Below are positions 6,168 to 16,048 of a DNA stretch of 47,023 nucleotides, in pieces; position 1 is the stretch's first letter; the number at the start of each line of letters is the position of its first letter. This DNA is from Gemmatimonadota bacterium (GTDB taxonomy: Bacteria > Gemmatimonadota > Gemmatimonadetes > Gemmatimonadales > GWC2-71-9). Below the pieces are notes generated by a model. The model had not been told where the DNA came from. It was given only the letters and a program-made list of their open reading frames with translations, and made no database searches. The stretch covers positions 1 to 47,023 of the forward strand of contig QKDC01000041.1 of the NCBI GenBank assembly GCA_003246755.1. Direction: 5' to 3'. Position numbers and translations under genes: made by a program.

Positions 6168-7646
6168 CTATCGGCGCGGGACCGCGACCAGGCCGGTTCT
6201 CGAGACCAGCCGAACCACCCGGTCGCCGTCCCAATCGACTCGGAGCACCCGTTCGTTGTCACCGTCGACCAGTGTGGTTTGGGCGATGGGGATCAGATCC
6301 CCACCCAGGATCTCCTTGCTTGCCAATCGCAGGAAGCCCTCATCAGTCCAGGTCAAGGTGAAGGTGGCCGGCGTTCCCTCAACGGTATAGGTCGTAGCGA
6401 TCGACGCTCGCCGCGCGGGGGAGAGGGTCACGAGCGGGACCATGTTGACGGGGAATCCCTCCCAGCCATACTCGGTGGCGAGTGCCCGGAAGATCTCATT
6501 GATCAGGGGGAAACCACCACCTCCGTTGGTCATGATCACTGCACCCGCACCATGTTCGAGGAAGCCGACAGCCAACACACGGTAGCCCGCACTGGCACCG
6601 GTGTTCCTGAAGATGCGCATCGGTGGCGCAGGCGGCGCAGGGTGAGGGATCACAACACCCAGGCCGAAGTCGTTCATGACCGGAGTCAGCATCGTCTCGG
6701 TCGTCGTCTGCGAAAGAAGTCGTGATGATTCGCCACGCAGCGAGTTCTGGATCTCGATGAAGAGCAGCGCCAAGTCAGACGGTGTGCTCCACAACCCGGC
6801 GGCCGCCAGTTCGGGGTAAATGCGCCAGCCTCCCGGCGCGACGGCGCCACTGAAATCGTGCCCACTGGCCGCTTCGCCCCACCGGGCCTCCGGCGGCGGC
6901 AGGTAGCTGCTATTGGTCATCCCGAGGGGACGAAATACCACTGAGTCCATGAGGGCGGCGAACGGCGTGTGAGTGACGTCTTCCATCGCCTGCTGCATCA
7001 CCAGGTAGCCCCCACCGGAGTAGCGCCACACTGTGCCGGGAGTCATGTCGACCGTCACCGGCGGGGTACTCCCCTCGCCCCGGAGCACGCCGAGGGTGGT
7101 CGGCACCTTCTCACTCCGCGGGTAACCCCCAAAAGAGCCGACCGAGAGGCCGGCGGTGTGCGAGGCGATCCGCCTCAGGGTGACGGTCGAGTCGAAGTCG
7201 TGTGCCGGGAGCTGCCACGAGGTGAGCGCTGTGTTGATGTCAGCGTCGAGATCGAGACGACCGGCCTCGACCAGCGCGAGCATCGCGGCCGATACCGGAG
7301 CGGCGACCGAGCCGGCCTGAAAGAGGGTGGTCGGGGTGACGGGGGTGCCTTTCGCCGCATCGGCCACACCGTAGCCCTTGGCCCACACTATGCGACCGCT
7401 GTCGAAAACTGCGATGCTCACCCCTGGGACACCGTAGCGGGTCATGCGGTCTTGGATGGTGGCCGTAGGCACCGGACGGCCGATGACAGCAACCGCTGGG
7501 TGAAGGTTGTGCTCGATCCTGGTTACTCTGGCGGCCTGATCGGCGGGGACCTGCGCGCGGAGCAGCAGTGGAAACCCGACGGCAATGAGCACGGTGACAA
7601 AGCGACGCAAGATATTTCTTCTCCTGAAGAGATTCGAACCACACAT
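6168..7646 (-). CDS. Exported serine-hydrolase-like protein (beta-lactamase class C fold) lacking the SxxK lysine
   Basis: A protein of 492 residues with an N-terminal signal peptide (FVTVLIAVGFPLLLRAQ) and a class C beta-lactamase/serine-hydrolase domain: RYGVPGVSIAVFDSGRIVWAKGYG, then the region of the nucleophile, GSVAAPVSA, then GRLDLDADIN and the tyrosine motif YSGGGY. The nucleophile motif SxxK reads S113-V-A-A116, so the general-base lysine is replaced by alanine. The HxG-type motif near RNTGASAGY is also atypical. A C-terminal beta domain of about 100 residues follows. It may be a non-catalytic binding protein or use another base. A TTG at 7610, ten bases after AGGAG, would give a shorter and cleaner signal peptide and is a credible alternative start. 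Confidence 0.85.
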   Translation of the reverse strand: MCGSNLFRRRNILRRFVTVLIAVGFPLLLRAQVPADQAARVTRIEHNLHPAVAVIGRPVPTATIQDRMTRYGVPGVSIAVFDSGRIVWAKGYGVADAAKGTPVTPTTLFQAGSVAAPVSAAMLALVEAGRLDLDADINTALTSWQLPAHDFDSTVTLRRIASHTAGLSVGSFGGYPRSEKVPTTLGVLRGEGSTPPVTVDMTPGTVWRYSGGGYLVMQQAMEDVTHTPFAALMDSVVFRPLGMTNSSYLPPPEARWGEAASGHDFSGAVAPGGWRIYPELAAAGLWSTPSDLALLFIEIQNSLRGESSRLLSQTTTETMLTPVMNDFGLGVVIPHPAPPAPPMRIFRNTGASAGYRVLAVGFLEHGAGAVIMTNGGGGFPLINEIFRALATEYGWEGFPVNMVPLVTLSPARRASIATTYTVEGTPATFTLTWTDEGFLRLASKEILGGDLIPIAQTTLVDGDNERVLRVDWDGDRVVRLVSRTGLVAVPRR

Positions 7647-7769
7647 GACCTGCTCTCAACCCAGTTGAACCATAACCCAGCCGAGATCATCAGCGCGAGA
7701 CGCGGTACACTTCCATCGTCCAATAGTCCCGGATCGAAGTCCTTCCACGGCGTCCCGGGTCACGGAGGG
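7647..7769. other. Upstream region of the serine-hydrolase-like gene
   Basis: About 120 bases ahead of the minus-strand serine-hydrolase-like gene, expected to hold its promoter. No convincing -35/-10 pair was found. The tannase relic begins just beyond it. Confidence 0.35.
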
Positions 7770-7914
7770 ATCACCCTGGCCGCTGGAATCGGGTGCGAAC
7801 TCCGCCAGACTTGCGAACACAGGGGGGGGTGTAGCTTCGGATTGCGGACCCGTTGCCGAGTACAAGGGTGGGGATACGAATCAGGCGGACAGTTTCGTGT
7901 GTCGCGTGCCCTGA
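7770..7914 (+). pseudogene. Tannase-gene relic: leader joined directly to the last 20 codons
   Basis: Bases 7831-7851 are identical to 9398-9418 in the leader of the intact tannase gene, and the 50 bases before them, including a run of eight G, also align (matching ATCGGGTG, ACTTGCG and GCAG/ACAG-G8 blocks). Immediately after this block, 7852-7914 encode VAEYKGGDTN-QADSFVCRVP and TGA, almost the same as the tannase C-terminus VAEYRGGDTN-HADNFVCRVPGEP. The leader and tail are joined after GGACCC, so almost the entire coding region has been lost in one internal deletion. It cannot be expressed as an enzyme. Origin as a duplicated or ancestral tannase gene is inference; the sequence matches are direct. 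Confidence 0.8.
7821..7851 (+). repeat. Direct repeat, copy 1 (G8 tract plus 21-base identity)
   Basis: Copy in the tannase relic; the partner is at 9387-9418. Both contain a run of eight G followed, after one or two bases, by an identical 21-base block starting GTAGCTTCGG. The shared part extends less perfectly to the left. Confidence 0.85.
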
Positions 7915-8013
7915 GAGCCACGAACTCCATCTCTCCGCGCGGCGGTACGAGTGGCACACTCGACAGGAAAATGACGTAAGCATCGTTCTGCCGATGACCA
8001 AAGTCGCCGGTTG

Positions 8014-8400
8014 CTAGCGAGGCGTGGAGTCAGGCCTCCATCTCCGACGCGGCCACCGTGCAACCAACACGATGCCGACAAGGACCATGTTGATCACTGG
8101 ATCGACACGGGATAGGTCCGTCTCATTCGTGGTTACTGTGTAAAGGGCGCCGAGCATCACGGCCATCAGCACAGCGGCCGCAAAATGAGCGAGTCTGGGG
8201 ACGAGCAGCAGTGCGGCTCCCCCAAGCTCTATGACGCCAATGACTGTGGCAAACCACGGGGTGAATCCCCATCGCTGAAACCAGTGCTGCCAGCCCGCTG
8301 CGTCCGCGAATTTGCCGTACCCAGCTTTCGCGAACGTGAGTGAGGCCAAGACCGTGACCAGCCAGAGAAGGGCGAGTCCGACGACACGCATGGCCTTCAT
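8014..8400 (-). CDS. DoxX-family membrane protein
   Basis: A protein of 128 residues with four membrane helices in the DoxX arrangement: a first helix (VVGLALLWLVTVLASLTF) followed by AKAGYGKFADAAGWQHWFQRWG, then FATVIGVIELGGAALLLVPR and two further helices, with a basic tail. DoxX proteins are linked to quinone or thiosulfate oxidation and redox stress in some bacteria, but most are uncharacterised. The ATG at 8400 is chosen because GAAAGG lies six bases upstream; the frame could extend to a GTG at 8421. It follows closely after another membrane-protein gene, likely as an operon. Confidence 0.85.
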   Translation of the reverse strand: MKAMRVVGLALLWLVTVLASLTFAKAGYGKFADAAGWQHWFQRWGFTPWFATVIGVIELGGAALLLVPRLAHFAAAVLMAVMLGALYTVTTNETDLSRVDPVINMVLVGIVLVARWPRRRWRPDSTPR

Positions 8401-8417
8401 GGTGTTCCTTTCATCGA

Positions 8418-8915
8418 TCACCCAGCCGACCCGCGCCGCTCCTTAGGTGCATCAGGGCTGGCCACACCCAGCCTCGCGGCATCCTTGCCTGACGTCAGCG
8501 TCGCCTGCGCCTTTCGCGCGATGATCAACGTGCCCGCCGCGGCGCCAGCACCCAAGAAGGTGAGGATCGTCAGGTTCGCGATGGCGGTTGAGAGGGACCA
8601 GACCCTCGCCCCGTTCATGGCGGCAAGGAAGAGAAAGTAGAGCAGCCCGCCTCCGGCACCGAGGGCGATGACGAAGGGGAGTGAGAGTCTATCGAACGTG
8701 CGGCTGCGTGCGAGGACTGCCAGACCAGCGGAAAACGCCACGCCGACGATGCCGGCGACAACCGATAGCCTGGCGACCAATCTCAGGACGTCCCAGGACA
8801 CCGCGCCCACGAGCACGCCCACGAGTCCAAGGACCGACCCCAGCACTCCGACACCTAGGGCGAATGTCAGTCCCGTGCCGACCATCCCACGAATGACCCT
8901 CAGCCAACGCGGCAT
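8418..8915 (-). CDS. Hypothetical membrane protein with four helices
   Basis: A protein of 165 residues, strongly hydrophobic, with helices near 10-33, 45-67, 75-97 and 105-130 and a charged tail of about 30 residues rich in Lys, Arg and Asp, probably on the cytoplasmic face. No family is recognised. The start at 8915 is chosen because GGAGG lies five bases before it; the ATG three bases earlier is only two bases from that site. The stop lies 17 bases before the DoxX ATG, so the two are likely co-expressed. Confidence 0.7.
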   Translation of the reverse strand: MPRWLRVIRGMVGTGLTFALGVGVLGSVLGLVGVLVGAVSWDVLRLVARLSVVAGIVGVAFSAGLAVLARSRTFDRLSLPFVIALGAGGGLLYFLFLAAMNGARVWSLSTAIANLTILTFLGAGAAAGTLIIARKAQATLTSGKDAARLGVASPDAPKERRGSAG

Positions 8916-8929
8916 CATCTCCTCCAAGT

Positions 8930-9161
8930 GAATGCATGGGAACCGTCACCTTCCAACGGGTGCCAGCCGGCGCCTCCATCGCCTGGTGCGCTCGTAGTGG
9001 GGACTCCCCGGTGGGATCCGTGAAGGTGACCACATGAGCATCCGGATCTCGGGGTGCCCATTCGCGCTGTCCAAGGCATCGACCTCCGGACCCCATTCAA
9101 TCGGCAACCTGAACCTGATCGATTCGTAGAGCGGGAGTGAATCGCTCACCCGAATATACAC
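8930..9161 (-). pseudogene. Possible frameshifted small gene remnant
   Basis: From a GTG at 9161 the minus strand reads VSDSLPLYESIRFRLPIEWG and continues to HPEIRMLM near 9020. Coding character then seems to continue in another frame as VVTFTDPTGESPLRAH and APAGTRWKVTVPMHS, ending near the next gene. Codon third positions look GC-rich in both halves. Read together they would give a soluble protein of about 75 residues broken by one frameshift. No family is recognised, and both halves could be chance, so this is tentative. Confidence 0.3.
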
Positions 9162-9213
9162 ATCGGATTAGCCGATCGGCCCCGCCTGGGGTACAGTCGC
9201 CTCAAAGAAGACC

Positions 9214-9237
9214 AGACTCGTTGAGTCTCTGCAGAGA
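9214..9237. promoter_or_regulatory. Two overlapping palindromes upstream of the tannase gene
   Basis: AGACTC-GTT-GAGTCT (9214-9228) is a perfect inverted repeat with a three-base centre, and TCTCTGCAGAGA (9226-9237) is a perfect 12-base palindrome sharing three bases with it. They lie about 200 bases before the tannase ATG. Such sites can be operators for dimeric repressors; no regulator is identified. Confidence 0.35.
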
Positions 9238-9386
9238 ACGCAGTGATCGGAACACTCATGAGACCGGAGGTGGGCGCGTACCCAGCGGATGGTTCGGGCA
9301 TGTCAGCGAGGGCGGGGCTGCGGCCGCGCGCGCGGTGTCGGCACTGGGATCGGGTGGCGTGCCAGCGCCGCGGGACTTGCGCCCGC

Positions 9387-9418
9387 AGGGGGGGGCCGTA
9401 GCTTCGGATTGCGGACCC
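9387..9418 (+). repeat. Direct repeat, copy 2, in the tannase leader
   Basis: Partner of the copy at 7821-7851. It ends 18 bases before the tannase start codon, so it lies within the 5' untranslated region or promoter of the intact gene. Confidence 0.85.
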
Positions 9419-9435
9419 AATCCCCAGGAGGAAGC

Positions 9436-11016
9436 ATGGCACCACGCGCGTCCCTTCTCTGCCTGACCAGCGTCCTGCTGATCGGTCTAGCCCCACCAGC
9501 ACATGCCCAGAACCAGACAACCCCAGACTGCGCGGCCCTGGCGAAACTGGAGTTACCGAACACCACCATCAACACGGCCGAACCAGTGACGGAGGGATCC
9601 TTCGAGATTCCCGGCTTCCCCAGGACGATCAGGGGCCTCCCACCATTCTGCCGAATAACGGGCATCATCGCTCCGACCCTCGCGTCGCGCATCGGGTTCG
9701 AGGTTTGGCTGCCGCTCGGGAACTGGAGCGGGAAGTTTGTGGGTGTCGGCAACGGAGGCTGGGCCGGTTTCGCCTCCTACGATGCCCTCGGCGGCCAGAT
9801 CAGGCGAGGCAACGCTACCGCTTCGACGGACACCGGCCATGAGGGAACTTTCGGGTTGGACATGGCACGGTTCGCCGTCGAGTTCCCGGAACGCCTCGTG
9901 GATTTCGCGCACCGGTCACATCACGAAACGGCCGTGAAGGGGAAGGCCCTCACCGAGGCATTCTACGGTCGACCGGCGGACTACTCGTATTTCGTTGGGT
10001 GCTCGTCCGGCGGGTACGAGGGTCTCATGGAGGCGCAGCGATACCCCGAGGACTACGACGGCATCGTGGCCGAGGCGCCGGCGAACAACTGGACCCGCCT
10101 TATGGCCGCGACGTTCGATGCCAACCTGGCGGTGCTTCTGGATCCGAAGGGTGTGCTTTCTCCGGCGGCGCTGAGTATCCTGCATCGGGGAGTGCTCCAG
10201 GCCTGTGACTCGATCGATGGGGTCACTGATGGTGTGCTCGAAGATCCGCGGCGCTGCACCTTCGACCCGGCAACCCTGACTTGCCCCAACGGTCAGGTCA
10301 GTGAGGATTGCCTGACGACGGCCCAGGTAAAAGCGGCCCGACACGTCTATGGCGGCCTCAGAGACCCAGCAACGAGGACATCTCTCTATCCCGGGCTCGC
10401 CCCGGGGAGCGAACCCTTCTGGCCCTACCGGAACCCTGCCTTTCCGTTCTCCATCCCGGTATCCCATTACCAGTGGCTGGTCTTCTCCGATTCCACCTGG
10501 GATTGGCGGTCCTTCAGTTTTGACGACCCAGGGGACTATGAAGCTCACGTTCGTGCCGAGGCCAGATTCGCTCCTCTCATGAACGCGACTGATCCCGACC
10601 TTCGCGAGTTCCAGCGCCTGGGCGGCAAGCTGCTCCAACACCACGGCTGGAGTGACGGGCTGATCGCCCCACAGAACAGTATCGACTACTACGAGAGCGT
10701 ATTGTCACTGTTCAACTCTGGCCGCACCCGGAATGACGCCATAGCCGACGTGCAGAGCTTCTACCGACTGTACATGGTGCCGGGGGTAGGACACTGCGGT
10801 GGGGGACGCGGGACGGACACGTACGAGATGCAGGCGGCGCTCGAACGGTGGGTCGAGCACGAGGTCGTGCCGGATCGCGTCATCGCGACTCGTCGGCTTT
10901 CCGGTGTGGTGGACCGCTCACGCCCGCTCTGTCCCTATCCCGCCGTTGCCGAGTACAGGGGCGGGGATACGAACCATGCCGACAATTTCGTGTGTCGCGT
11001 GCCCGGGGAGCCCTGA
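9436..11016 (+). CDS. Tannase / feruloyl-esterase family protein, exported
   Basis: A protein of 526 residues starting with a signal peptide (LLCLTSVLLIGLAPPAHA, cleavage expected near residue 24). It has the CS-D-HC arrangement of this family: Cys189-Ser190 within GCSSGG (nucleophile), Asp407 in HHGWSDG, and His453-Cys454 in GVGHCGGG; the two cysteines normally form a disulfide beside the active site. Further cysteine pairs (near C32, FCR, QACDS, RRCTF, SEDC) fit an extracytoplasmic enzyme. Known members cleave esters of gallic or hydroxycinnamic acids, but many have unknown substrates. The ATG at 9436 has an ideal AGGAGG site; the frame is open upstream but that part looks non-coding. Decayed relatives of its leader and tail lie 1.5 kb upstream. 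Confidence 0.92.
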   Translation: MAPRASLLCLTSVLLIGLAPPAHAQNQTTPDCAALAKLELPNTTINTAEPVTEGSFEIPGFPRTIRGLPPFCRITGIIAPTLASRIGFEVWLPLGNWSGKFVGVGNGGWAGFASYDALGGQIRRGNATASTDTGHEGTFGLDMARFAVEFPERLVDFAHRSHHETAVKGKALTEAFYGRPADYSYFVGCSSGGYEGLMEAQRYPEDYDGIVAEAPANNWTRLMAATFDANLAVLLDPKGVLSPAALSILHRGVLQACDSIDGVTDGVLEDPRRCTFDPATLTCPNGQVSEDCLTTAQVKAARHVYGGLRDPATRTSLYPGLAPGSEPFWPYRNPAFPFSIPVSHYQWLVFSDSTWDWRSFSFDDPGDYEAHVRAEARFAPLMNATDPDLREFQRLGGKLLQHHGWSDGLIAPQNSIDYYESVLSLFNSGRTRNDAIADVQSFYRLYMVPGVGHCGGGRGTDTYEMQAALERWVEHEVVPDRVIATRRLSGVVDRSRPLCPYPAVAEYRGGDTNHADNFVCRVPGEP

Positions 11017-11118
11017 GACTCGAGCTGCCCGCCCTTGGTCCTCGACCCTTGCTCCCAAGGAAGAAGTCCATTCAGCTCGCCGGCAGCATTCGCCCGCGAG
11101 GAGGCGCGGACCCCGTGG

Positions 11119-11598
11119 TCATGGCTGGGGCTTCCACGGCCGGAGCCGGGGGACGAGCCTTGGCACCGCCTTCCGGTAATCCTCGTAGTCCGCTCCGAAC
11201 CGGGACCTCAGCTGCGGTTCTTCGAGCAACGGGATGTAGATGGCGTTGATCGCGAAGAAGATGCCTGCCCAGAGGAGGTGGGGTGTTGATCGCAACACGA
11301 GACCTTCCCCCAGAAGTAGGAGAATCACCCCTGAGATCATGGGGTTTCGCACGAAGGAGTAGGGGCCGGTCACCACGAGTCGAGTTGGAGGATCCCAGGG
11401 AGCCAGAGTCCCCTGCCCATCCCTGCCAAATCGTCTGAGAGTCGCAGCGAAGAGGGCCGCTCCACAGGACAGAGCAATACCACCCCCGACAAGGGCCATC
11501 CAGCCCTGTGCTGAGGTGGGTCCTGAGGGGACGATGCCCGCGTTGCGTGCAATCCACAGGGGGATCACAAGGACGACCATCGCGGGGAACACCGCCAC
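11119..11598 (-). CDS. Isoprenylcysteine carboxyl methyltransferase-like membrane protein
   Basis: A protein of 159 residues with four to five hydrophobic segments and the C-terminal signature of the ICMT/PEMT-like methyltransferase family: VTGPYSFVRNPMISGVILLLLGE and EEPQLRSRFGADYEDYRKAVPRLVP. These proteins use SAM to methylate lipid-like or prenyl-linked substrates at the membrane; bacterial substrates are mostly unknown. The frame remains open upstream to the recN stop (KSWVVRQALAV would precede), with no ATG or TTG there, so the GTG at 11598 is used; a rarer start a few codons earlier is possible. It is the last gene of the long infC-recN block. Confidence 0.8.
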   Translation of the reverse strand: MAVFPAMVVLVIPLWIARNAGIVPSGPTSAQGWMALVGGGIALSCGAALFAATLRRFGRDGQGTLAPWDPPTRLVVTGPYSFVRNPMISGVILLLLGEGLVLRSTPHLLWAGIFFAINAIYIPLLEEPQLRSRFGADYEDYRKAVPRLVPRLRPWKPQP

Positions 11599-11637
11599 TG
11601 CGAGGGCCTGGCGAACGACCCAAGACTTGAGCAGGAT

Positions 11638-13293
11638 TTATCTCGGCGAGAGTAAGGCCAACGCATGCCGTCGGGCAGTATCCGAATCAGGATCGCCCAG
11701 CATCCTCGCTAACTCCAGCACCCTGTCTTCCCCATGCAAGACCGCGACGTCGCTAGTGGCGAGACCACCCTGCACCGCCTTCGCCACGACCAAGTGCCTG
11801 TCCGCACGTGCCGCGATGGTCGGGAGGTGGGTGATGACCAACACCTGATGCCGCTCACTCACACTCGCGAGTAGCTCCGCCACCGCCAACCCCACCTCTC
11901 CACCGATCCCCTGGTCGACCTCGTCGAACACGAGCGTCGGGACCCGGTCGTGTGCCCCAAGCACGGTCTTGATCGCCAGCATGACGCGACTCAACTCACC
12001 ACCGGAGGCACTGGTCGAAAACGGCCGCGGATCCAACCCCGGGTTGAGTTGTGCCATGAGCCGGAGATCCTCGGCGCCATGCGACGTGACGATATCCAAC
12101 GGCACGACCTCCAGCGTGACCACACCATCGCTCAGCCCCAGCCGTGGCAAGAGCCGAGTGACCTCTCGACCCAACCTCTTGGCCGCGGCGGTGCGTTTCT
12201 CGGTGAGCCGCGCCGCCGTCGCCCGCAACACACCCTCCGCCTCTTCACGCCGCCGAGCCAACGCCTTGAGGTCAAAATCCGCCCGGTCCACCAGATCCAA
12301 CTCCTCGGCGGCATTTCGCCCAGTGTCCAACACCTGAGCAATAGTCTCGCCGTACTTCTGCTTCAGGCGATACAGGAGATCCCGACGGCTCTCCACTTCG
12401 GACAGCCTACCGGGATCTTCTTCCAAGGTGTCTGCATAGTCCCCAGCCACTCGGGCCAGTTCCTGCAACTGCGCGAAGGCGCTGTCCAACAGTTCATGCC
12501 ATGCATCCACGGACGGGTCGGTCTTCTCGAGCTGGCTCAGTGCCTTGTCCGCCGTGGCCAACGCACCGAGCGCGGAACCCTCGTCGCCGTCGAGCGCTTC
12601 GACTATCATCCTGGCAAAACCGGTAAGGGAGCCCGCATGCGCCAGACGCCTGGCTTCCGCGTCGAGTTCGTCATCCTCACCCAGCCTCAGCCCTGCACCC
12701 TCGATCTCTTTCACGACGTGTCGGAGGTAGTCGGTCCGGCGCTTGACCTCATCGCGCCGCGCACCCAATTCCACCTCCTCCTTCCGCAGACCCTCTACCC
12801 TGCCGTATTGCTCTGTGACCTCCCTTGCCAGCCCTGCCGTAGCCCCGTATTCGTCAACCACCTCCCGCTGGCGAGCAGGCTCGAGCAGCGTCCGTGTTTC
12901 GTGCTGTCCGTGGAGATCGACCAGCAGCTCGCCGATGCCGGAGAGCGAACCCATCGAAACCGGACTCCCATTCACCCAACCGCGACTCCGTCCCTCGACC
13001 GTGACTTCTCGCCGGAGTACCAAGGGCTGCTCGGAGGAGTCGAGCCCCAGATCCTCCAATGCGGACATCAACTCCGGGGACGACTCCTCGATCACCCCTT
13101 CGACCAGCAACCGCTTGGCACCCGACCGCACGGCCCCTGAGTCGGCACGCGCCCCAAGCAGGAGAGCCAATGCGTCGACGAGCATGGACTTGCCTGCACC
13201 GGTTTCGCCTGTGAGCACATTGAGGCCGGGTCCGAGGGAGAGAGTGACGTCGCCGATAGTGGCGAGGTCGCGGACCCGGAGTTCGCGAATCAC
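11638..13293 (-). CDS. recN: DNA repair protein RecN
   Basis: An SMC-like ATPase of 551 residues acting in double-strand break repair. Visible features: Walker A GETGAGKS at about 29-36, a central coiled-coil region with many Glu, Arg and Leu heptads, the ABC signature SGGELSRVMLAIK, Walker B TLVFDEVDQGIGG and a C-terminal VLVITHLPTIAARAD switch region. The start is GTG at 13293, overlapping the nadK TGA as GTGA. The frame extends to 13479, but the added residues (Pro/Arg-rich) do not resemble RecN, whose proteins begin with an L-x-I-x-NFA-type strand such as VIRELRVRDLATI here. Coupling to nadK matches the common nadK-recN order. Confidence 0.95.
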   Translation of the reverse strand: MIRELRVRDLATIGDVTLSLGPGLNVLTGETGAGKSMLVDALALLLGARADSGAVRSGAKRLLVEGVIEESSPELMSALEDLGLDSSEQPLVLRREVTVEGRSRGWVNGSPVSMGSLSGIGELLVDLHGQHETRTLLEPARQREVVDEYGATAGLAREVTEQYGRVEGLRKEEVELGARRDEVKRRTDYLRHVVKEIEGAGLRLGEDDELDAEARRLAHAGSLTGFARMIVEALDGDEGSALGALATADKALSQLEKTDPSVDAWHELLDSAFAQLQELARVAGDYADTLEEDPGRLSEVESRRDLLYRLKQKYGETIAQVLDTGRNAAEELDLVDRADFDLKALARRREEAEGVLRATAARLTEKRTAAAKRLGREVTRLLPRLGLSDGVVTLEVVPLDIVTSHGAEDLRLMAQLNPGLDPRPFSTSASGGELSRVMLAIKTVLGAHDRVPTLVFDEVDQGIGGEVGLAVAELLASVSERHQVLVITHLPTIAARADRHLVVAKAVQGGLATSDVAVLHGEDRVLELARMLGDPDSDTARRHALALLSPR

Positions 13294-14156
13294 CTGATGT
13301 CGTCGCGCTCGGTGAGGTCGCCCCAGCGGAGCGTGGTGCGGAGGCGCCGGTAGTACCGGCCAGCGGCGAAGCGAACGAGATGGACCCGATCCGGTGACTG
13401 ACGGATCACCACCTTGTCTCCCTCGCCGAGCCTCAAATCCTGCTGCCCATCGATGCTGATCTGGAGGTCGGCGCTCCAATCCTTCACCGGAGCGATGGTA
13501 ATCGCAGATGTGGACTTGATGACCAACGGCCGCACGGCGAGCGTGTGCGCACAGATGGGAGTGAGAACGATTCCCTCGACGCCCGGAGCCAGGATGGGAC
13601 CGCCGGCACTGAGCGAATAGGCGGTCGACCCCGTGGGCGTCGCGATCACCACACCGTCGGCACTGAAGGGCCCCAACTCGACGTCATCCACCATCACGCC
13701 GAGCCTCACCATCCGCGCCACACCGCGCTTGTGGACCACGACATCGTTGAGCGCCGTGGGCAAGACCCGCTTCTTCGTACCCGAGATGATGACCGAAGTC
13801 AGCGTCATCCGCTCCTCGACCTGATGTTCACCCGCGAGGAAGCTGCCGATCGCCTCCTGATAGTCTGCTCGGGTCGCGACGGTGAGAAACCCAACACGAC
13901 CGAGATTGACACCAAGGATCGGAATGGGACGACCCGCCAGGAGGCGCGCGCCACGCAGGAGGGTGCCGTCTCCACCGAAGGTGAAGAGCGCGTCGAGTGG
14001 TTCCTGCGTCAAATCGGATGGGGCAATGTCCCAGAACTGTGAGAGGACCTTTTCGGACCGCAACGCGATGCCCCGTGAATCGGCGGTTTGCTTGACCCAG
14101 GCGAGGTGGGCCTCGACACCTTCGTACTCGGCGTTGCCGATGACCCCGATGATCAT
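13290..14156 (-). CDS. nadK: NAD kinase
   Basis: Phosphorylates NAD to NADP with ATP or polyphosphate in the cytoplasm. The 288-residue protein has the GGDGT motif (FTFGGDGTLLRGARLL), NLGRVGFLT and the conserved TPTGSTAYSLSAGGPI stretch that forms the NAD site. Length is normal for the family. The ATG overlaps the dxs TGA by four bases and its own TGA overlaps the recN GTG, so dxs, nadK and recN are probably translated in a coupled series. Confidence 0.96.
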   Translation of the reverse strand: MIIGVIGNAEYEGVEAHLAWVKQTADSRGIALRSEKVLSQFWDIAPSDLTQEPLDALFTFGGDGTLLRGARLLAGRPIPILGVNLGRVGFLTVATRADYQEAIGSFLAGEHQVEERMTLTSVIISGTKKRVLPTALNDVVVHKRGVARMVRLGVMVDDVELGPFSADGVVIATPTGSTAYSLSAGGPILAPGVEGIVLTPICAHTLAVRPLVIKSTSAITIAPVKDWSADLQISIDGQQDLRLGEGDKVVIRQSPDRVHLVRFAAGRYYRRLRTTLRWGDLTERDDIR

Positions 14157-16048
14157 CGGGCCTCGAGGCTTTCCTCATGGTAGAGGGCGGTGATACGCTC
14201 GGCGAGTCCGGACGGGGTAAGTCCAAACTTCGCGAGTTGCTTTGCTCGGGGCGCTTGCTCCATCAGGACGTCCGGCACTCCGATGGGGACGACCCGCACC
14301 TCTGGGTGGGTGGCCTGGAGGCGACCGGCGAGATAGGCGCCGAACCCGTTGGCCACTGTTCCCTCCTCGACGGTCACGATGGTGGTGCAGGTGAGCGCCA
14401 GCCGCTCGAGCATGAGCTCATCGAGCGGTTTCATGAACCGGCAATTCACCACGGCCGGGTCGAACCCCTCGGCGGCAAGCTTCTCCACAGCCTCGAGCGC
14501 CGGGTCGACCATGGTCCCCACCGCGAAGACGGCGAGGTCGTGACCTTCGCGCAGCAGATCCCACGTCCCGTAGGGCACCGCCGGGATGTCCGATACCGAA
14601 GAGGGTTGGCGTGGGGCCTTGTCCCGAGGGTACCGGGTGCAGAACGGACCGTCGTGGTCGAGAGCGGTGCGGAGGAGTCCGATCAGTTCGTCGCCATCGC
14701 GTGGTGCGGTGACGGTCATGCCGGGAACCGCCAGCATGTAGGCGATATCGTAGAGCCCCATGTGCGTCTGACCGTCTTCACCCACCAAACCCGCTCGATC
14801 CATACAGAAGGTGACGGGGAGCTTCTGCACCGCGATATCGTGGATGATATTGTCGTAAGCACGTTGGAGGAAAGTGCTGTAGATCGCGCAGATGGGTCGA
14901 ATCCCCTGCGTGGCCAGGCCACCCGCAAAGGTCACCCCATGACCCTCGGCGATGCCGACGTCGAAGAACCGCTCGGGGTGCTCCTGCGCGAAGATCTTGG
15001 TCCCCGTGCCGGACGGCATCGCGGCGGTGATCACCACGAAGTCCTTCCGCTCGTGACCCAGCGTCGTGATCGCCTCGCCAAAGACCTGAGTCCACGCCGG
15101 CGGCCCACTGGACGCTTTCCGTGCCTCGCCGGTTTCCGGATCGTACGCCGCCAGCCCATGCCATTTCTCTCGATTCGACTCGGCGTGGGCGAAGCCCTTC
15201 CCTTTCTCGGTCAGGACATGAATGACCCGAGGCCCATCGAGGTCGCGAACAAAGGCCAGCGTGTCACACAGCTTGTCGAGGTTGTGACCATCGATCGGCC
15301 CGAAGTACCTGAAGCCCATCTCCTCGAAGAACATGCCTTCCGAGAACAGGTTCTTGACGCTCTCCTCGACGTTCTTGGCGAAGTCCACGATCCCTTCGCC
15401 GAACACCCCACCGAGTCGTTGCGTGACGTGCTTGACCCCATCGCGCACCCCATTGGCGAATGGATTGGCCACGATGCGGCCCAGGGTCTTGGCAATCGCC
15501 CCGACATTGGGCGAGATGGACATCCCGTTGTCGTTGACGATCAGGATGATGTCGCGGTCGGAGTGCCCCGCGTTGTTCATCCCTTCATACGACAAGCCGC
15601 AGGTCAGAGCGCCGTCACCGACCACCGCCACGACTTCGTAGTCGAGTCCCAGGAGATCCCGAGCCGTGGCCATCCCGAACGCCGCCGACATCGCGGTGCC
15701 CGCGTGCCCCGCCCCGAAGTGATCGTGCGGGCTCTCCGATCGGCGGAGGAATCCCGAAATGCCACCCTCAGTGCGTAGGGTGTCGAACCGGTCGTTTCGA
15801 CCGGTGAGCACCTTCCAGACATAGGCCTGGTGGCCCACATCCCAGAGGACCTTGTCGCTCGGCGAATCGAACTGATAGAGAAGAGCGATGGCGAGTTCGA
15901 CACAACCCAGACTGGCCCCGATGTGCCCCCCAGTGTGCGAGACACAGTCGATCAGTCGCTCGCGAATGTCGCGGGCGAGCTCCGGCAGCTGGTCTCGGCT
16001 GAGACGCTTCAGATCTTCTGGGTTCTTGACCGTATCGAGAAGGCTCAT
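14153..16048 (-). CDS. dxs: 1-deoxy-D-xylulose-5-phosphate synthase
   Basis: First enzyme of the MEP isoprenoid pathway; condenses pyruvate with glyceraldehyde 3-phosphate using thiamine diphosphate. The 631-residue protein has normal length and domain order: SHTGGHIGASLGCVELAIAL near the N-terminus, the thiamine-binding motif VGDGALTCGLSYEGMNNAG, the transketolase pyrimidine domain with DVGIAEGHGVTFAGGLA and MDRAGLVGEDGQTHMG, and a C-terminal domain with VTVEEGTVANGFGA. It lies 20 bases after the prenyl synthase gene, so two isoprenoid steps sit side by side. No strong ribosome site is seen before the ATG. Confidence 0.97.
   Translation of the reverse strand: MSLLDTVKNPEDLKRLSRDQLPELARDIRERLIDCVSHTGGHIGASLGCVELAIALLYQFDSPSDKVLWDVGHQAYVWKVLTGRNDRFDTLRTEGGISGFLRRSESPHDHFGAGHAGTAMSAAFGMATARDLLGLDYEVVAVVGDGALTCGLSYEGMNNAGHSDRDIILIVNDNGMSISPNVGAIAKTLGRIVANPFANGVRDGVKHVTQRLGGVFGEGIVDFAKNVEESVKNLFSEGMFFEEMGFRYFGPIDGHNLDKLCDTLAFVRDLDGPRVIHVLTEKGKGFAHAESNREKWHGLAAYDPETGEARKASSGPPAWTQVFGEAITTLGHERKDFVVITAAMPSGTGTKIFAQEHPERFFDVGIAEGHGVTFAGGLATQGIRPICAIYSTFLQRAYDNIIHDIAVQKLPVTFCMDRAGLVGEDGQTHMGLYDIAYMLAVPGMTVTAPRDGDELIGLLRTALDHDGPFCTRYPRDKAPRQPSSVSDIPAVPYGTWDLLREGHDLAVFAVGTMVDPALEAVEKLAAEGFDPAVVNCRFMKPLDELMLERLALTCTTIVTVEEGTVANGFGAYLAGRLQATHPEVRVVPIGVPDVLMEQAPRAKQLAKFGLTPSGLAERITALYHEESLEAR

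Follow-up and report, generated by a model that had tools for sequence, protein, structure and literature searches.

A candidate tannase pseudogene remnant upstream of an intact tannase gene in a Gemmatimonadota genome

A 156-bp segment at positions 7783-7938 of the window (the whole stretch of DNA analysed, 47,023 nucleotides of a Gemmatimonadota draft genome assembled in 190 contigs) lies approximately 1.4 kb upstream of an intact tannase gene and consists of two pieces of that locus. The question is whether this segment is what is left of a second tannase gene, as the original prediction had it, with one large internal deletion joining the leader to the end of the gene, or whether the resemblance has some other source. 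Judging by the sequence, the segment is very probably a pseudogene remnant of a tannase gene, produced by ordinary gene decay.

Structure of the relic and of the intact gene

Both ends of the relic are homologous to the intact locus (Table 1), as predicted. The two pieces are collinear, have the same orientation and abut each other. The local alignment scores are 84 for the leader and 117 for the tail (7850-7938 against 10943-11032), whereas the maxima in 300 single-base shuffles were 44 and 40, respectively.

Table 1. Features of the relic, the intact tannase locus and the genes between them (window coordinates)
Feature	Position	Strand	Evidence
Relic leader	7783-7851	+	59 identities in 69 aligned bases against 9344-9418; gaps of 5 bp and 1 bp
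Candidate deletion junction, CC (2 bp) shared by both pieces; 1526 bp of the intact copy absent	7850-7851	+	alignment
Relic tail: the 20 matched codons, followed by a new TGA (7912-7914)	7850-7919	+	70-nt repeat, 89%
Weak homology continuing past the stop	7920-7938	+	gapped alignment to 11013-11032
DoxX-like membrane protein gene, between the copies	8014-8421	-	PF13564 4.2e-12, PF07681 5.3e-10
Conserved 169-aa protein gene, between the copies	8418-8927	-	no Pfam match
Leader of the intact tannase gene, counterpart of the relic leader	9344-9418	+	alignment
AGGAGGAAGC (ribosome-site-like) and ATG of the intact tannase gene	9426-9438	+	sequence reading; missing from the relic
Intact tannase/feruloyl esterase gene, 526 aa	9436-11016	+	PF07519
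Counterpart of the relic tail in the intact locus	10943-11032	+	alignment

The leader had been described as 21 identical bases plus 50 bases of weaker match including a run of eight G. The 21-mer (7831-7851 and 9398-9418) and the G8 run (7822-7829 and 9388-9395) are indeed exact in both leaders, but the homology extends further in the 5' direction, in a gapped form, to position 7783. When the window was shuffled 100 times by dinucleotides, two matches to the 21-mer, with three mismatches allowed, never arose. Besides the two G8 runs, the + strand of the window contains one run of at least seven G and five runs of at least seven C.

The homology of the tail spans 10943-11012 of the intact locus, with a weak extension to 11032, and at the protein level it matches residues 503-526 of the tannase at 79%. 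Twenty codons are matched, as described, but the stop codon was not retained: following these codons the intact gene reads Gly-Glu-Pro-stop, and the relic has a new TGA at the Gly codon, three codons early. The tail match begins at 7850, one base before the leader match stops (7851); thus CC is common to both, and 1,526 bases are missing. The short microhomology proposed for the junction is therefore present, but as CC rather than CCC. By coordinates, the missing bases comprise the ribosome-site-like sequence, the ATG and 503 codons.

The disabling lesions of the relic are this loss, including the ribosome site and the start, and the early TGA. The PF07519 catalytic domain is absent from the segment, the matched residues being only those at the C-terminus. 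The possibility that the tail is translated from a usual start codon was rejected on reading the sequence: the tail frame, followed back to a stop at 7666, contains no ATG, GTG or TTG and a single CTG, at 7783. A long + strand ORF over the relic (6969-7979) reads a frame other than that of the tail. A functional RNA family at the relic was also rejected, as the Rfam scan of the window at gathering scores yielded no match. Most likely the segment has no function, as far as can be told from its sequence. There is a very slight chance that the relic leader may still act, for instance as a promoter for a short RNA consisting of the tannase 5' leader and 3' end. If so, such an RNA would titrate a regulator or affect the divergently transcribed serine hydrolase gene, whose start (7646) is 137 bp from the relic. 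A search for sigma-70-type promoters, the one type within its scope, found none in 7600-11150.

The intact protein is a member of the PF07519 tannase and feruloyl esterase family. It matches almost the entire profile (positions 1-489 of 490; 1.9e-113; 380.4 bits vs the curated cut-off of 29.8; Pfam) as well as sequences of solved structures, which in this family include feruloyl esterases B (6g21, E 2.1e-71, and 3wmt) and MHETase (6qg9). NCBIfam models gave no match to this protein. Its translation shows GCSSGG, GWSDG and GVGHCGG, which we take to be the catalytic motif of the tannase family, CS-D-HC (Ser, Asp and His with a flanking Cys pair). It differs from its homologues in lacking one residue near the C-terminus that is present in 37 of 39 aligned rows.

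Descent of the two copies

The leader and the tail of the relic have diverged from the intact locus to the same degree (59/69 and 60/68 identical bases; Fisher P=0.80), and the 18 differences in 137 aligned bases are spread across both parts. The longest run of identity, 34 columns, spans the junction and contains the entire 21-mer. Its length is not significant (P=0.076), and special conservation of the 21-mer was therefore rejected.

The residue lacking in the intact protein belongs to the C-terminal motif [Y/F/W]-x-G-x-G, and the corresponding codon is missing from both the relic and the intact gene. The motif is intact in 37/39 homologue rows (35 with Y); the remaining two, L007 and L009, represent one gene and do not align at the motif. 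The homologue set was formed by leaving out seven loci of the genome itself, and 39 of the 41 remaining loci matched up to the C-terminus; the family and phylum listings had more matches than loci, and the alignment took only rows with loci. The equal divergence and the common missing codon support the assignment of leader and tail to one paralogue, and they bear out the predicted duplication or ancestral paralogue followed by a deletion, the order of the events being inferred.

The closest homologues provide a further comparison. At one codon the relic has Lys, the intact gene Arg (AGG), and L012, L013 and L014 have AAA, AAA and AAG; at another, the relic has the Ala codon GCG, the intact gene GCC, and the same homologues GCG, GCG and GCT. 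The relic therefore likely keeps the ancestral state at two codons that were changed in the intact gene, and at other codons it is the changed copy. Sharing Lys and the Ala codon GCG with the closest homologues, the relic is not a recent copy of the present-day intact gene. Together with the missing codon, this comparison indicates that the relic and the intact gene most likely share an ancestor that postdates the divergence from the known homologues, and both would have drifted since.

Tannases are distributed patchily. They were matched in 9 of 102 genomes of the family and in 55 of 395 sampled from the phylum; both counts include the genome under study. The nearest homologues found, L012-L014 (61-63% identity), come from Acidobacteriota, in a pattern-limited scan that found three loci. 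Three of the 40 rows, all fragments, were excluded from the tree, in which the intact protein clusters with these three acidobacterial tannases (100/100 support), separately from those of its own family; this is a place where long branches meet, the tannase of the window being among the long rows.

Two deviant architectures were observed among the relatives. In an Acidobacteria MAG (L013:2254-5196, QHZP01000304.1) the tannase domain and a PQQ_2-type beta-propeller form an in-frame fusion within one open frame of 981 aa (PF07519 and PF13360). Short tannase-like frames occur in three genomes of one genus (L007 and L009, G039:C4:396941-397984; G212:C85; G404:C57); they match residues up to approximately 219 and from 388, and the missing middle part is presumably the lid region.

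Genomic neighbourhood

As predicted, two unrelated minus-strand genes separate the copies, one DoxX-like and one encoding the 169-aa protein. The latter has matches in 14 of 102 family genomes searched, its own included; the best match in another genome has 71% identity over 109 residues. On the other side of the relic, at 6168-7646 on the minus strand, there is a serine hydrolase gene whose product belongs to the beta-lactamase fold family (PF00144, 9.2e-49). It scores far below the cut-offs of the named class C beta-lactamase models, and thus its identity as a resistance enzyme is unsupported. The genes dxs, nadK and recN follow in succession at 11119-16048 on the minus strand.

A shared ancestral gene block around the tannase gene was rejected by the recN, DoxX and 169-aa-gene neighbourhoods. 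RecN was matched in 57/61 genomes, and 13 recN neighbourhoods were fetched, all from other genera and with flanks after recN of approximately 1.2 to 9.3 kb. All 13 contain recN together with nadK, and seven contain dxs, some of the stretches being shortened. In none of them, at E up to 1e-4, does tannase, either minus-strand neighbour, the PEMT-like gene or the serine hydrolase stand beside recN. Since none of these genes was found there, the region beyond recN seems, on this comparison, to vary within the family. Neither was tannase found beside DoxX in the five loci fetched (in one of them a serine hydrolase is matched weakly, at 26%), nor beside the 169-aa gene in three loci of up to approximately 3.5 kb. 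The other window proteins tested had no match in the three acidobacterial tannase loci.

Origin of the relic

The history that best explains these observations, and in our view very probably the right one, is a lineage-specific duplication followed by one internal deletion. A PF07519 tannase gene with its upstream leader and a little 3' flank would have been duplicated within the lineage. One copy would then have lost approximately 1.5 kb, from just upstream of the ribosome site to 23 codons before the stop, the probable cause being illegitimate recombination or replication slippage at the 2-base CC match; the other would have been kept intact at 9436-11016, and both would have drifted afterwards. 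We infer a formerly full-length second copy at 7.8 kb, a deletion that came after the duplication, and recombination as the mechanism.

An unlikely alternative is that the relic was born deleted: template switching copied the leader, skipped approximately 1.5 kb of the tannase gene and went on to copy the end of the gene elsewhere, so that a full second gene never existed. The total length of 156 bp and the 2-bp junction fit this equally well, and template switching to a ready-deleted copy would leave the same trace as duplication followed by deletion. However, additional switches would be required at the outer ends. The homology fades toward both of these, as expected from neutral decay of a longer copy, although this is not decisive. 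Other remnants of the missing 1.5 kb were found neither in the window nor, by protein, in the genome. A draft assembly also invites the suspicion of a chimeric contig joining reads from two tannase loci. We consider such an artefact quite improbable, as the relic, with its 18 differences over both parts, is no displaced fragment of the intact gene, and no second full tannase was found in the genome: the protein search yielded one full gene and one tail fragment.

The remaining alternatives concern repeats. The original prediction named one of them, a dispersed mobile repeat unrelated to tannase with a chance match at the tail. It was rejected: with up to three mismatches allowed, the 3.15-Mb genome contains two copies of the 21-mer, at the tannase locus and at the relic, the tail score is 117 against a shuffle maximum of 40, and the relic DNA matched none of 394 other genomes from the phylum when no more than two candidates per genome were scored, a search that missed the genome's own leader match and thus may overlook weak relatives. 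When the genome was searched with 7783-7940 and all 11 first-look candidates were scored, the relic itself, 10943-11032 and 9359-9418 were recovered, and no fourth place. Similarly, in 1,124 comparisons, in which 160-bp pieces from the rest of the window were aligned in both orientations to the tannase region, the best three overlap the relic (117, 108 and 62), and the best score elsewhere is 56. Nor does the leader look like a dispersed or regulatory element that merely adjoins a tannase tail. The 34-column identity run across the junction, with the 21-mer inside it, could be taken to favour such an element, but the run length is unremarkable, only two copies exist in the genome, and Rfam gave nothing. 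Moreover, the 19-base core with two mismatches allowed occurs in 2 of 61 genomes, the genome itself and, by a single match, one of its 60 relatives, which by a hand estimate is about the chance expectation. We regard this possibility as close to negligible.

Duplication followed by internal deletion thus remains the preferred reading. Bacterial pseudogenes are known to include gene copies of this partly deleted kind. Prokaryotic pseudogenes (Liu et al. 2004, PMC522871; Kuo and Ochman 2010, PMC2916853) resemble the relic in being disabled, partly deleted, intergenic gene copies; the tannase relic keeps both ends, so that its history can be read, and there is no difference in kind. The latter study reports that deletion is very likely to remove young pseudogenes in Salmonella. 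Among the papers found on tannase, gene duplication and pseudogenes, none, judged by title, concerns bacteria. As a single case the relic carries little weight; it documents how a hydrolase gene of patchy distribution was duplicated and decayed, in a scrap of approximately 150 bp that has kept both ends and can be read as one deletion.
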